Made by a program: the position numbers and the translations under genes. Below, piece by piece: positions 534 through 2,132 of a stretch of 53,403 nt of DNA (position 1 is its first letter; each line of letters begins with the position of its first letter). This DNA comes from Halomarina oriensis (GTDB lineage: Archaea; Halobacteriota; Halobacteria; Halobacteriales; Haloarculaceae): positions 1 to 53,403 of the forward strand of contig NZ_WSZK01000042.1 in NCBI RefSeq assembly GCF_009791395.1. The letters are read 5' to 3'. The notes under the pieces were generated by a model that was given only the letters and a program-made list of their open reading frames with translations, searched no databases and was not told the origin of the DNA.

Positions 534-809
534 ATGAGCGAATCCGTCGACCCCGAGGAGGTCCGGCACGTCGCCGACCTCGCACGGGTCGCACTCGACG
601 ACGACGAGGTGGCCCGCTTCGCCGAGCAGTTCGGCGACATCCTCGCGTACTTCGACGCGCTGGACGAGGTCCCCGAGGTCGACCGGGAGGCCGACCTGAC
701 CAACGTGATGCGCACCGACGAGGTCCGCGACAGTCTCTCCCAGGAGGCGGCGCTGGAGAACGCCTCCGAACGCGTCGACGGCTACTTCAAAGGGCCACGG
801 GTGTCGTAG
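534..809 (+). CDS. gatC: Asp-tRNA(Asn)/Glu-tRNA(Gln) amidotransferase subunit C
   Basis: GatC is the small belt subunit that stabilises GatA-GatB in the transamidase making Asn-tRNA and Gln-tRNA from mischarged precursors. The 91-residue protein has the family pattern: DPEEVRHVADLARVAL near the start, a central FGDILAYFDALDEV helix, then the loop with MRTDEV before a basic tail (GYFKGPRVS). I chose the ATG at 534 because it begins the conserved MSESVDPEEV and sits about 28 bases after a TATA-like element; an in-frame ATG 15 bases upstream adds nothing conserved. The TAG stop is directly abutted by the gatA ATG, so the two are one operon. gatB is not in this window. Confidence 0.95.
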   Translation: MSESVDPEEVRHVADLARVALDDDEVARFAEQFGDILAYFDALDEVPEVDREADLTNVMRTDEVRDSLSQEAALENASERVDGYFKGPRVS

Positions 810-2132
810 ATGGCCGACGAGAACGTCTTCATCACCGAGGCGACCATCGAGGGCGCGGAGGACGGGCCGCTCGCCGGCAAACGCGTCGCCGTCAAGGACA
901 ACATCTCCACGGAGGGCGTCCGCACGACCTGTGGGTCGGACATGCTCGCCGACTACGTTCCGCCCTACGACGCGACGGTCGTCCAGCGACTGAAAGCGGC
1001 CGGCGCGACCATCGTCGGCAAGACCAACATGGACGAGTTCGGCATGGGGTCGACCACCGAGACGTCGGCGTTCGGCCCGACCGACAACCCCGCGGCTCCC
1101 GGCCACGTCCCCGGCGGTTCGTCGGGTGGTTCGGCGGCCGCCGTCGCCGGCGACTACGCCGACCTCGCGCTCGGAACCGACACCGGTGGGTCGATTCGGA
1201 ACCCGGCGGCGTTCTGTGGCGTCGTCGGCATCAAGCCGACCTACGGACTGGTCTCCCGGTACGGGCTGGTCGCGTACGCCAACTCGCTGGAGCAGATCGG
1301 GCCGCTCGCGCCGACCGTCGAGGAGGCCGCCGCGCTGCTCGACGTCGTCGCCGGCCCCGACGACAACGACGCGACGACGCGACAGGAGAGCGAGGCGCGA
1401 CGCGCCTCGGACAGTCGAGCGGGCGACGCCCGCGAGACGGGCGCGAACTCGAACTACGCCGACGCCGCCGACGGCGACGTCGAGGGACTGACCGTCGGGG
1501 TTCCGACCGAACTCGTCGAGGGAGTCGACGAGGGCGTCCGCGAGTCGTTCGAGGCCGCCCTCGACGACCTGCGCGACCAGGGTGTCGAGACGGTCGACGT
1601 GTCTCTCCCCTCGGTCGAGACGGCCGTTCAGGCGTACTACGTCGTCGCCATGTCCGAGGCCTCCTCGAACCTCGCCCGCTACGACGGCGTTCGCTACGGC
1701 GTCTCCGGCGGGTACGAGGGCAACTGGAACGAGTCGTTCGCCGACTCGCGCGAGGAGGGCTTCGGCGAGGAGGTCAAGCGCCGCGTCCTGCTCGGCACCT
1801 ACGCGCTCTCGGCGGGCTACCACGACAAGTACTACGCGAAGGCCCAGGACGCTCGTGCGTGGATTCAACGGGACTTCGACGCGGCGTTCGACGAGGCCGA
1901 CGTGCTCGCCTCGCCGACGATGCCCGTCCCGCCGTTCGAACTCGGCGAGAGCCTCGACGACCCGCTCCAGCTCTACCTCGCGGACGCCAACACCGTCCCC
2001 GTCAACCTCGCCAACCTCCCGGCCATCTCGGTGCCCGCGGGAGAGACCGACGGCCTTCCGGTCGGGATGCAGTTCGTCGGCCCGGCGTTCGGCGAACACG
2101 CCATCGTTCGAGCGGCCAGTGCACTGGAGTAG
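810..2132 (+). CDS. gatA: Asp-tRNA(Asn)/Glu-tRNA(Gln) amidotransferase subunit A
   Basis: GatA is the amidase-signature subunit that releases ammonia from glutamine or asparagine for the transamidation done with GatB. The 440-residue protein shows the full Ser-cisSer-Lys triad: Lys29 in VAVKDN, cis-Ser104 in PGGSSGGSAA and nucleophile Ser128 in TDTGGSIRNPA. It abuts gatC without a gap. An unusual hydrophilic stretch of about 25 residues, around 191-216 (QESEARRASDSRAGDARETG region), sits between conserved parts and is encoded by two perfect palindromes, so it looks like a repeat inserted in frame into a surface loop. The remaining protein matches the usual archaeal length. The function call is firm; only the effect of the insert is unknown. 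Confidence 0.96.
   Translation: MADENVFITEATIEGAEDGPLAGKRVAVKDNISTEGVRTTCGSDMLADYVPPYDATVVQRLKAAGATIVGKTNMDEFGMGSTTETSAFGPTDNPAAPGHVPGGSSGGSAAAVAGDYADLALGTDTGGSIRNPAAFCGVVGIKPTYGLVSRYGLVAYANSLEQIGPLAPTVEEAAALLDVVAGPDDNDATTRQESEARRASDSRAGDARETGANSNYADAADGDVEGLTVGVPTELVEGVDEGVRESFEAALDDLRDQGVETVDVSLPSVETAVQAYYVVAMSEASSNLARYDGVRYGVSGGYEGNWNESFADSREEGFGEEVKRRVLLGTYALSAGYHDKYYAKAQDARAWIQRDFDAAFDEADVLASPTMPVPPFELGESLDDPLQLYLADANTVPVNLANLPAISVPAGETDGLPVGMQFVGPAFGEHAIVRAASALE
1392..1433. repeat. Paired palindromic repeats inside gatA
   Basis: Two perfect palindromes occur in the gatA coding sequence: GAGGCGCG-A-CGCGCCTC at 1392-1408 and GCGGGCG-A-CGCCCGC at 1419-1433, each with a single A at the centre. 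They encode the Arg/Ala/Ser/Asp-rich loop that interrupts an otherwise conserved region. The same style of GC-rich palindrome appears between genes elsewhere in the window (around 5780-5880, 15802-15860 and 17490-17508), so this is probably an insertion of a dispersed haloarchaeal repeat in a tolerant, in-frame position. Confidence 0.7.

Follow-up and report, generated by a model that had tools for sequence, protein, structure and literature searches.

An in-frame insertion in the gatA gene of Halomarina oriensis is one copy of a short palindromic element which recurs in this and other haloarchaeal genomes, and whose fold is conserved through compensatory changes. Copies are inserted in many unrelated genes, are present in some congeneric species and absent from others, and read in one frame and on one strand in nearly all cases called as coding. 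Taken together, these observations are likely to be explained by a dispersed palindromic element without a transposase of its own, which occurs widely among haloarchaea and would be spread by mobility as well as by exchange between genomes. The window referred to below is the whole analysed stretch of 53,403 nt, and sites with and without the element are termed filled and empty, respectively.

The insertion in gatA

The gene, its upstream neighbour and the parts of the insert are, in window positions:

534..809, + strand: gene directly upstream of gatA, presumably gatC given the gatC-gatA gene order (open reading frame listed from 519; ATG start read by eye)
810..2132, + strand: gatA, Glu-tRNA(Gln)/Asp-tRNA(Asn) amidotransferase subunit A, 440 aa (NCBIfam TIGR00132, 545.6 bits)
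1389..1439, + strand: inserted element, 51 nt or 17 codons, encoding SEARRASDSRAGDARET, GatA residues 194-210
1389-1438, + strand: match of the family covariance model, the window copy being a member of the model seed
1391..1409, + strand: hairpin 1, 8 bp in the model and 9 in the perfect palindrome, loop GAC
1410..1413, + strand: linker GACA, 4 nt, one nt longer in several other coding copies
1414..1438, + strand: hairpin 2, loop GAC, from the minimum-free-energy fold and pair counts
1414-1416 with 1436-1438, + strand: outer 3 bp of hairpin 2, GTC/GAC
1417-1418 and 1434-1435, + strand: tandem GA/GA mismatch of hairpin 2
1419-1424 with 1428-1433, + strand: inner 6 bp of hairpin 2, GCGGGC/GCCCGC

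The insert consists of AG, hairpin 1, the linker and hairpin 2 (1389-1438), plus one base, and its minimum-energy RNA fold is exactly this two-hairpin structure (-31.3 kcal/mol; z -3.1). The sister gatA genes of Halomarina rubra (L006) and of a congener locus (L171) read CGACAGGAG directly followed by GGTGCC, without an insert, where the window reads CGACAGGAG, the 51 nt and GGCGCG, with a left flank identical to that of both. At the protein level, the window GatA shares 92% identity with that of H. rubra (alignment A4; 87% in the best segment) and 92% with that of congener G055. Structure prediction (AlphaFold, 37 GatA sequences; mean pLDDT 86.6) places the only stretch of at least three residues with a predicted pLDDT below 50 at residues 195-213, where the insert lies. 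The catalytic triad, which we take to be Lys29, Ser104 and Ser128 (positions via alignment), is far in sequence from the insert at 194-210.

An earlier note on this DNA held that two perfect palindromes with single-A centres within gatA encode an extra in-frame loop. Both palindromes are present, at 1391-1409 (19 nt, arms of 9) and 1419-1433 (15 nt, arms of 7), and the 51 nt or 17 codons have no counterpart in H. rubra. Rather than two dispersed palindromes, as the note described them, they constitute the hairpins of a single 51-nt unit, the arms of which vary while pairing is kept. Among 59 aligned GatA rows (L006-L065), 56, including the closest named relative, lack the loop of the window and three contain a related one (L007, L017 and L027). 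Many GatA proteins without the loop read TTR-EE-GADSDY or similar, compared to TTRQE-SEARRASDSRAGDARET-GANSNY in the window and TTRQE directly followed by GADADY in H. rubra. A loop encoded by unrelated DNA in most haloarchaeal GatA proteins, which would have spoken against insertion, was not found; some lineages have unrelated longer loops. The two tests proposed for an in-frame repeat insertion, absence of the loop from relatives and similar palindromes elsewhere in the own genome, several of which are in frame inside other genes, turned out as predicted and support this reading.

Taken alone, the gatA palindromes are only mildly unusual, and their significance comes from the element family. 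The window (68% GC) holds 12 odd palindromes with arms ≥7 and one with arms ≥9, where 200 order-3 Markov simulations average 13.6 and 1.4, respectively; a close pair of gatA quality arose in 4/200 simulated windows. Synonymous shuffling of gatA gave a loop containing a palindrome with arms ≥9 in 261/5000 cases, and such a palindrome together with a second one in the loop in 17/5000.

A dispersed family with a conserved fold

A covariance model (R1) was built from eleven copies with 3-nt loops (alignment A2), the seed being kept to such copies because MAFFT misaligned those with long loops (A1, 17 copies). Four loci judged to be chance matches in coding DNA (L087, L090, L097 and L102), as well as near-identical copies, were left out beforehand. 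A second model (R2) comprised 34 copies. Among the eleven seed copies 97.9% of cells are paired, with two-sided changes in 10/17 pairs, compared to 3.4 in shuffles. For the 34 copies (A3, which like A5 and A6 was fitted to the model and hence leans towards it) the corresponding values are 96.1% of cells paired and 75 two-sided cells, compared to 19.7 in shuffles; when the partners are slid by one to three columns, 28-47% of cells pair. Pairing is likewise kept among the gatA copies alone (n=18; 20 two-sided cells, 3.9 in shuffles), and 40 other copies (A6, from 39 loci picked as coding) contain 84 two-sided cells, compared to 26.1 in shuffles. The arms of hairpin 1 thus vary across the family with compensatory changes.

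In the own genome, R1 detected eight non-seed matches (E 3.4e-8 to 3.4e-4) besides the seed gatA copy. With R2, some of whose seed copies are from the own genome, 76 matches at E≤0.05 were found in eight genomes of the genus (14, 19, 13, 1, 8, 5, 14 and 2), 14 of them in the own genome and 62 outside it, and at E≤1e-4 matches occur in 37/59 genomes of the order, with up to 34 in one genome; these copy numbers are lower bounds because 101-150 candidates were scored per genome. A single genome thus holds a dispersed family of similar palindromic repeats. The literal pattern of the gatA copy (≤2 mismatches) is present in 24/146 genomes of the taxonomic family, and its reversed control in 0/146. 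The stem-2 pattern is present in 107/117 genomes of the order and occurs 36 times in the own genome, where its reversed control occurs 10 times; in some genomes it is no commoner than the control (e.g. G234, 14 against 14). A literal 29-nt pattern of the gatA copy found only itself and one 3-mismatch match in the own genome, which suggested a unique import into gatA; this was ruled out by the variable-arm family that the covariance model recovered. No Pfam family was found for the 34-aa join of two insert peptides.

Chance, whereby GC-rich Ser, Glu, Ala and Arg codons would yield palindromes, is in keeping with the background level of single palindromes of this size in the window. It can be given next to no probability against the eight non-seed own-genome copies, the 24/146 genomes with the literal pattern and the covariation in the seed, 34-copy, gatA-only and other coding sets, and as an origin of the palindromes it is already refuted by the existence of the family.

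Copies are also found outside genes, among the loci of the genus and the order. The claim that the same repeat type lies between genes near gatA was not confirmed, because the only strong match in the window is the gatA copy and no second convincing copy was found there with the family model (filters off; next best E=0.034, 19.4 bits). In a related genus (g3), eight genomes have nearly identical copies that look intergenic, lie in similar surroundings and precede another strong hairpin (L088, L091, L092, L094, L095, L098, L099 and L101). At L110 a row of hairpins surrounds an apparently intergenic element (about 1480-1600, reverse strand), which suggests arrays of related hairpins between genes. 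The second-hairpin loop of the copy at L055 (17931-18026, - strand) is 48 nt larger than usual, perhaps with another small element nested inside it.

Copies in other genes of the genus

Element copies occur inside the leucine-, isoleucine-, glycine- and methionine-tRNA ligases, the carbamoyl-phosphate synthase large subunit, phosphopyruvate hydratase, tryptophan synthase alpha, hydroxymethylbilane synthase and chorismate synthase (all NCBIfam, over cut-off). Further copies are found in a helicase, for which the best match is an IGHMBP2-family model with a score of 302.3 bits, below the cut-off of 348.9, and in a DUF255 protein (one copy). Ten genes, a set outside which the methionine-tRNA ligase falls, were compared across three to eight congeners by protein alignment, and nine of them at the codon level. 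In leuS, carB, ileS, glyS, eno, trpA, hemC, aroC and the helicase gene the copies are in frame, and congeners, as different species and not isogenic strains, have empty sites or shorter loops. Compared to an empty congener, the filled protein has 15-18 additional residues in LeuRS, CarB, the helicase, enolase, TrpA, GlyRS and AroC; the difference is 11 residues for HemC and 26 for IleRS. The CarB and helicase inserts are 48 nt each. The cleanest pair is that of enolase, where G053 reads GTC GGC directly followed by GAC CGG ACG, and G051 reads GTG GGC, 51 nt and GAC CGG ACG, without target duplication and with the insert ends flush with the fold.

Among the congeners compared, the full insert occurs in one only for LeuRS, CarB, the helicase, enolase, HemC and GlyRS. 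In IleRS, TrpA, DUF255, LeuRS, HemC and AroC some congeners have loops that are incomplete or of another length, which would be expected from erosion of a copy or from loops of independent origin. At one aroC site G056 and G000 hold copies with different arm types. Among the 9 sites, whose loops are acidic, several insertions precede GA(C/G) or fall at (N)GCGAG codons, from which no target-site preference is claimed.

Reading frame and encoded peptide

Loci were called as coding where both 180-nt flanks had a codon score >8 and no stop, which applied to 35/65 loci; the seed contained coding copies and may favour finding these. In 33/35 coding-called copies the element has the same strand as the gene and starts on the first base of a codon (+ strand, phase 0). 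These include 15/17 in the genus set (31 loci, window copy included), 2/2 in five further own-genome loci and 16/16 in the order set (29 loci), and the two out-of-phase calls are the low-scoring L152 (32.0 bits) and L158 (27.1 bits). Among the thirty uncalled loci, six are by eye in phase 0 in genes (L118, L153, L313, L320, L328 and L332), and the remainder look intergenic, at gene ends or unclear. Stop codons do not explain the frame bias, because in a set of 40 copies taken from coding loci they are also absent from frames +1, -1 and -2, with seven in +2 and three in -0. The peptide of the used frame has a net 0.8 acidic residues per 17, whereas those of all other frames are net basic (-1.4 to -4.1); V, I, L, M, F, W and C make up 2% of its residues, compared to 8-26% in the other frames. 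The frame bias may reflect selection by the halophilic, acidic proteome, the alternative being a frame-specific insertion mechanism.

That the insert is not translated, through ribosome skipping or mRNA excision as for byp hairpins or an intron, might be considered for short GC-rich hairpins within important genes. Neither process would need the frame-keeping lengths (51 nt in enolase and GatA, 48 nt in CarB and the helicase), nor the single phase and hydrophilic, non-basic peptide of 33/35 coding calls, and this account appears very improbable beside translation of the insert.

Two copies on the - strand of L314 (1501-1551 and 1795-1845) lie 294 nt apart in one open frame and encode SAERSSADHTSGRSPRVD and SEALRASDSSSGQSPREE. 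From its sequence, this frame reads like GatE of the other archaeal Gln-tRNA amidotransferase, and a copy with matching sequence surroundings occurs in L315 and L322, from two other families. Three genomes of the genus (L117, L148 and L159) have copies that contribute to a C-terminal tail of about 25 residues, on a protein whose sequence reads like a thiolase.

Recurrence at the gatA site

The gatA site is filled in 17/124 sampled GatA sequences, some of whose loops were read among the matches listed, a biased subset sorted by similarity to the window GatA. On a quick maximum likelihood tree, computed without the loop columns and with 131 GatA sequences reduced to 124 rows, the filled tips are scattered. 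Of 21 names marked as filled 17 were kept, as three were redundant with kept rows and L108, whose gene is that of L180, was absent from the set; the filled L331 is outside the tree, and degenerate remnants (L198, L202 and L207) were scored as empty. The 17 filled tips need 17 changes, at least 11 of them forced by well-supported branches, which is no fewer than for random labels (mean 16.2). It follows that the site was filled or emptied many times, or that the loop is passed on in very short tracts. From one lineage to another, the point of insertion in gatA shifts by about two codons (after TTRE or after TTRxx). Unrelated, mostly longer loops occur at the same position in L039, L043, L052, L060, L190-L192, L201, L203-L206, L208, L209, L211, L215 and L216, and the gatA loop site is thus one that tolerates many insertions. 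The same sites in gatA, trpA, ileS, eno and merA are occupied in distant genera, those of trpA and ileS, as read from translations, being common to different families.

An ancestral mRNA structural element, kept for an RNA-hairpin function such as stability, pausing or processing and lost in most lineages, would agree with the compensatory changes that keep pairing inside coding DNA and with the wide distribution in the order. It is an improbable explanation, since the copies are in unrelated genes at unrelated positions, congeners lack the insert, copies also occur outside genes, and vertical retention would require at least 11 independent changes in gatA alone. Nor does any Rfam family match near the element in a search of seven loci; the two matches obtained there are at chance level (up to E 1) and lie away from it.

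Plasmid copies and gene exchange

Twenty of 23 plasmid records were listed in a blastn comparison; 12 match over the element and eight only over the flanking coding sequence of the query. Among the matches listed, 10/12 element matches are inside an annotated gene:

merA with element: plasmids of Halorussus vallis, H. aquaticus and Salinirubellus
ppc with element: plasmid of Haloterrigena salifodinae
cobN with element: plasmids of Natronococcus occultus and Halorubrum lacusprofundi
eno with element: plasmid of Haloterrigena sp. KLK7
P-type ATPases with element: plasmids of Halorussus vallis and Natrinema zhouii
mismatch-repair gene with element: plasmid of H. aquaticus

The four of these ten that were read (merA, ppc, eno and the Natrinema ATPase) have no internal stop and share the same strand and phase, and the merA and eno sites on plasmids are those of the genus, judged by the surrounding residues.

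It is possible, if rather doubtful, that a few old insertions move as alleles (gatA, trpA, ileS, eno and merA) by recombination and gene exchange, with little or no current transposition. The scattered filling of gatA (17/124 tips, 17 changes), the trpA, ileS, eno and merA sites common across genera (read from translations) and the plasmid location of the merA and eno copies would all be expected. However, the element of the window's best pair, with the metagenome-assembled genome SW_6_65_15, is 98% identical where the 240-nt flanks average 79%; this speaks for recency of the element, and any exchanged tracts would need to be very short. A point against recent spread is that, across all 136 pairs among the 17 gatA copies, the element is only slightly more alike than its flanks (81% compared to 78%, with the element higher in 93 pairs). 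The shifted gatA boundaries, the different arm types at one aroC site and the six proteins with a full insert in one compared congener only also argue against this account.

A proposal for movement

The mobile unit would be about 48-51 nt long and comprise two adjacent hairpins, with AG, stem 1, a linker of 4-5 nt and stem 2 with its GA/GA mismatch. The copies may represent a non-autonomous mobile element that is moved in trans, most likely in the form of a hairpin unit of single-stranded DNA, in the manner of the terminal-only palindrome-associated transposable elements (PATEs) left by IS605-type transposons, and would also be spread by gene exchange between haloarchaea. Genic copies would survive almost only on the coding strand and in the phase that encodes a tolerated peptide, namely one that is hydrophilic, non-basic, disordered, rich in Ser, Glu, Asp and Arg, and situated in permissive loops. 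The element would thereby be under a double constraint, to fold for propagation and to encode a harmless peptide in one frame. It is probably a non-autonomous mobile hairpin, retained solely at sites that can bear its peptide.

Among the filled and empty genomes, which are different species, neither transposition nor excision was observed, and no partner transposase came to light. Of the transposases that could mobilise a MITE in trans, the Y1 type (PF01797) was looked for and is lacking in the own genome, and a scan of 30 TnpA loci gave no convincing related ends, the only notable locus being L361 with two weak matches (25.9 and 19.6 bits); a link to IS200/IS605 is therefore weak or absent. 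A viral or phage vehicle was likewise rejected, as the four viral contigs found with one stem pattern score weakly (18.5-24.5 bits), the other stem pattern found none, and phage records gave no match.

Implications

Selfish DNA inserted in an essential coding sequence is expected to be lethal, with the Rickettsia and Wolbachia palindromic elements (RPE/WPE), from intracellular bacteria with small genomes, as exceptions. Confidence is about evenly balanced that the haloarchaeal element is a mobile hairpin under a double code, in which the fold serves propagation and one of the six frames encodes a halophile-compatible disordered peptide. Such a hairpin would enter essential genes repeatedly and without harm, even the same gatA site independently in many lineages, and would represent an independently evolved archaeal protein-coding palindromic element and a running source of new protein segments. 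If this is true for free-living archaea, in aminoacyl-tRNA synthetases, enolase, chorismate synthase and GatA, such insertions do not merely reflect weak selection in endosymbionts. Since congeners differ in whether the allele of a given enzyme is filled or empty, cost, benefit and mobility are directly testable. Caution is also warranted with surface-loop "adaptations" of halophile enzymes, which can be the remains of mobile elements.

Comparison with known systems

In the literature covered, largely outside subscription journals, no title or abstract opening points to such elements in haloarchaea. The REP/RAYT-associated hairpins of bacteria are short and dispersed, and REPs are by name extragenic; by contrast, at least 35/65 scored element loci are intragenic and the own genome has no Y1 transposase. 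The byps of yeast mitochondria are mobile short hairpins inside coding genes, from which the element differs in that its frame and peptide composition point to translation. The insertion peptides of haloarchaea, for example that of Halobacterium CysRS, are reportedly likewise extra peptides in halophile enzymes, a likeness by description.

The PATEs of Haloquadratum are described, in the accessible text, as transposase-free IS605-type relatives with near-terminal palindromes, without terminal inverted repeats or target duplication, and with terminal-only forms of 52 bp (PMC3119063). The element resembles them in being haloarchaeal and transposase-free, in a length close to that of their shortest form, in having near-terminal palindromes and in having neither target-site duplication nor terminal inverted repeats, as read from the enolase pair and the fold. 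It differs in being GC-rich and in its in-frame gene insertions, of which the accessible part of the PATE account makes no mention (PMC3119063). Membership of the PATEs is not claimed, because the own genome lacks Y1 and the TnpA loci, with 25.9 bits at best, share no convincing ends with the element; by analogy, PATEs could be the nearest haloarchaeal model for its movement.

RPE/WPE are families of short palindromic repeats that, according to the accessible text of two reports, have entered unrelated genes in frame and do not inactivate them (PMC10969869, PMC4224334), RPEs being given there a length of ~150 bp (PMC10969869). The haloarchaeal element is similarly in frame inside unrelated genes with orthologues that lack the insert. 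Unlike these alphaproteobacterial repeats, it is archaeal, consists of two GC-rich hairpins, has 48-51 nt in place of the ~150 bp of RPEs proper, is nearly restricted to a single phase and strand and occurs in many genera of one order. On the best reading, by analogy of description and not by sequence homology, the element would be the archaeal counterpart in kind of RPE/WPE.
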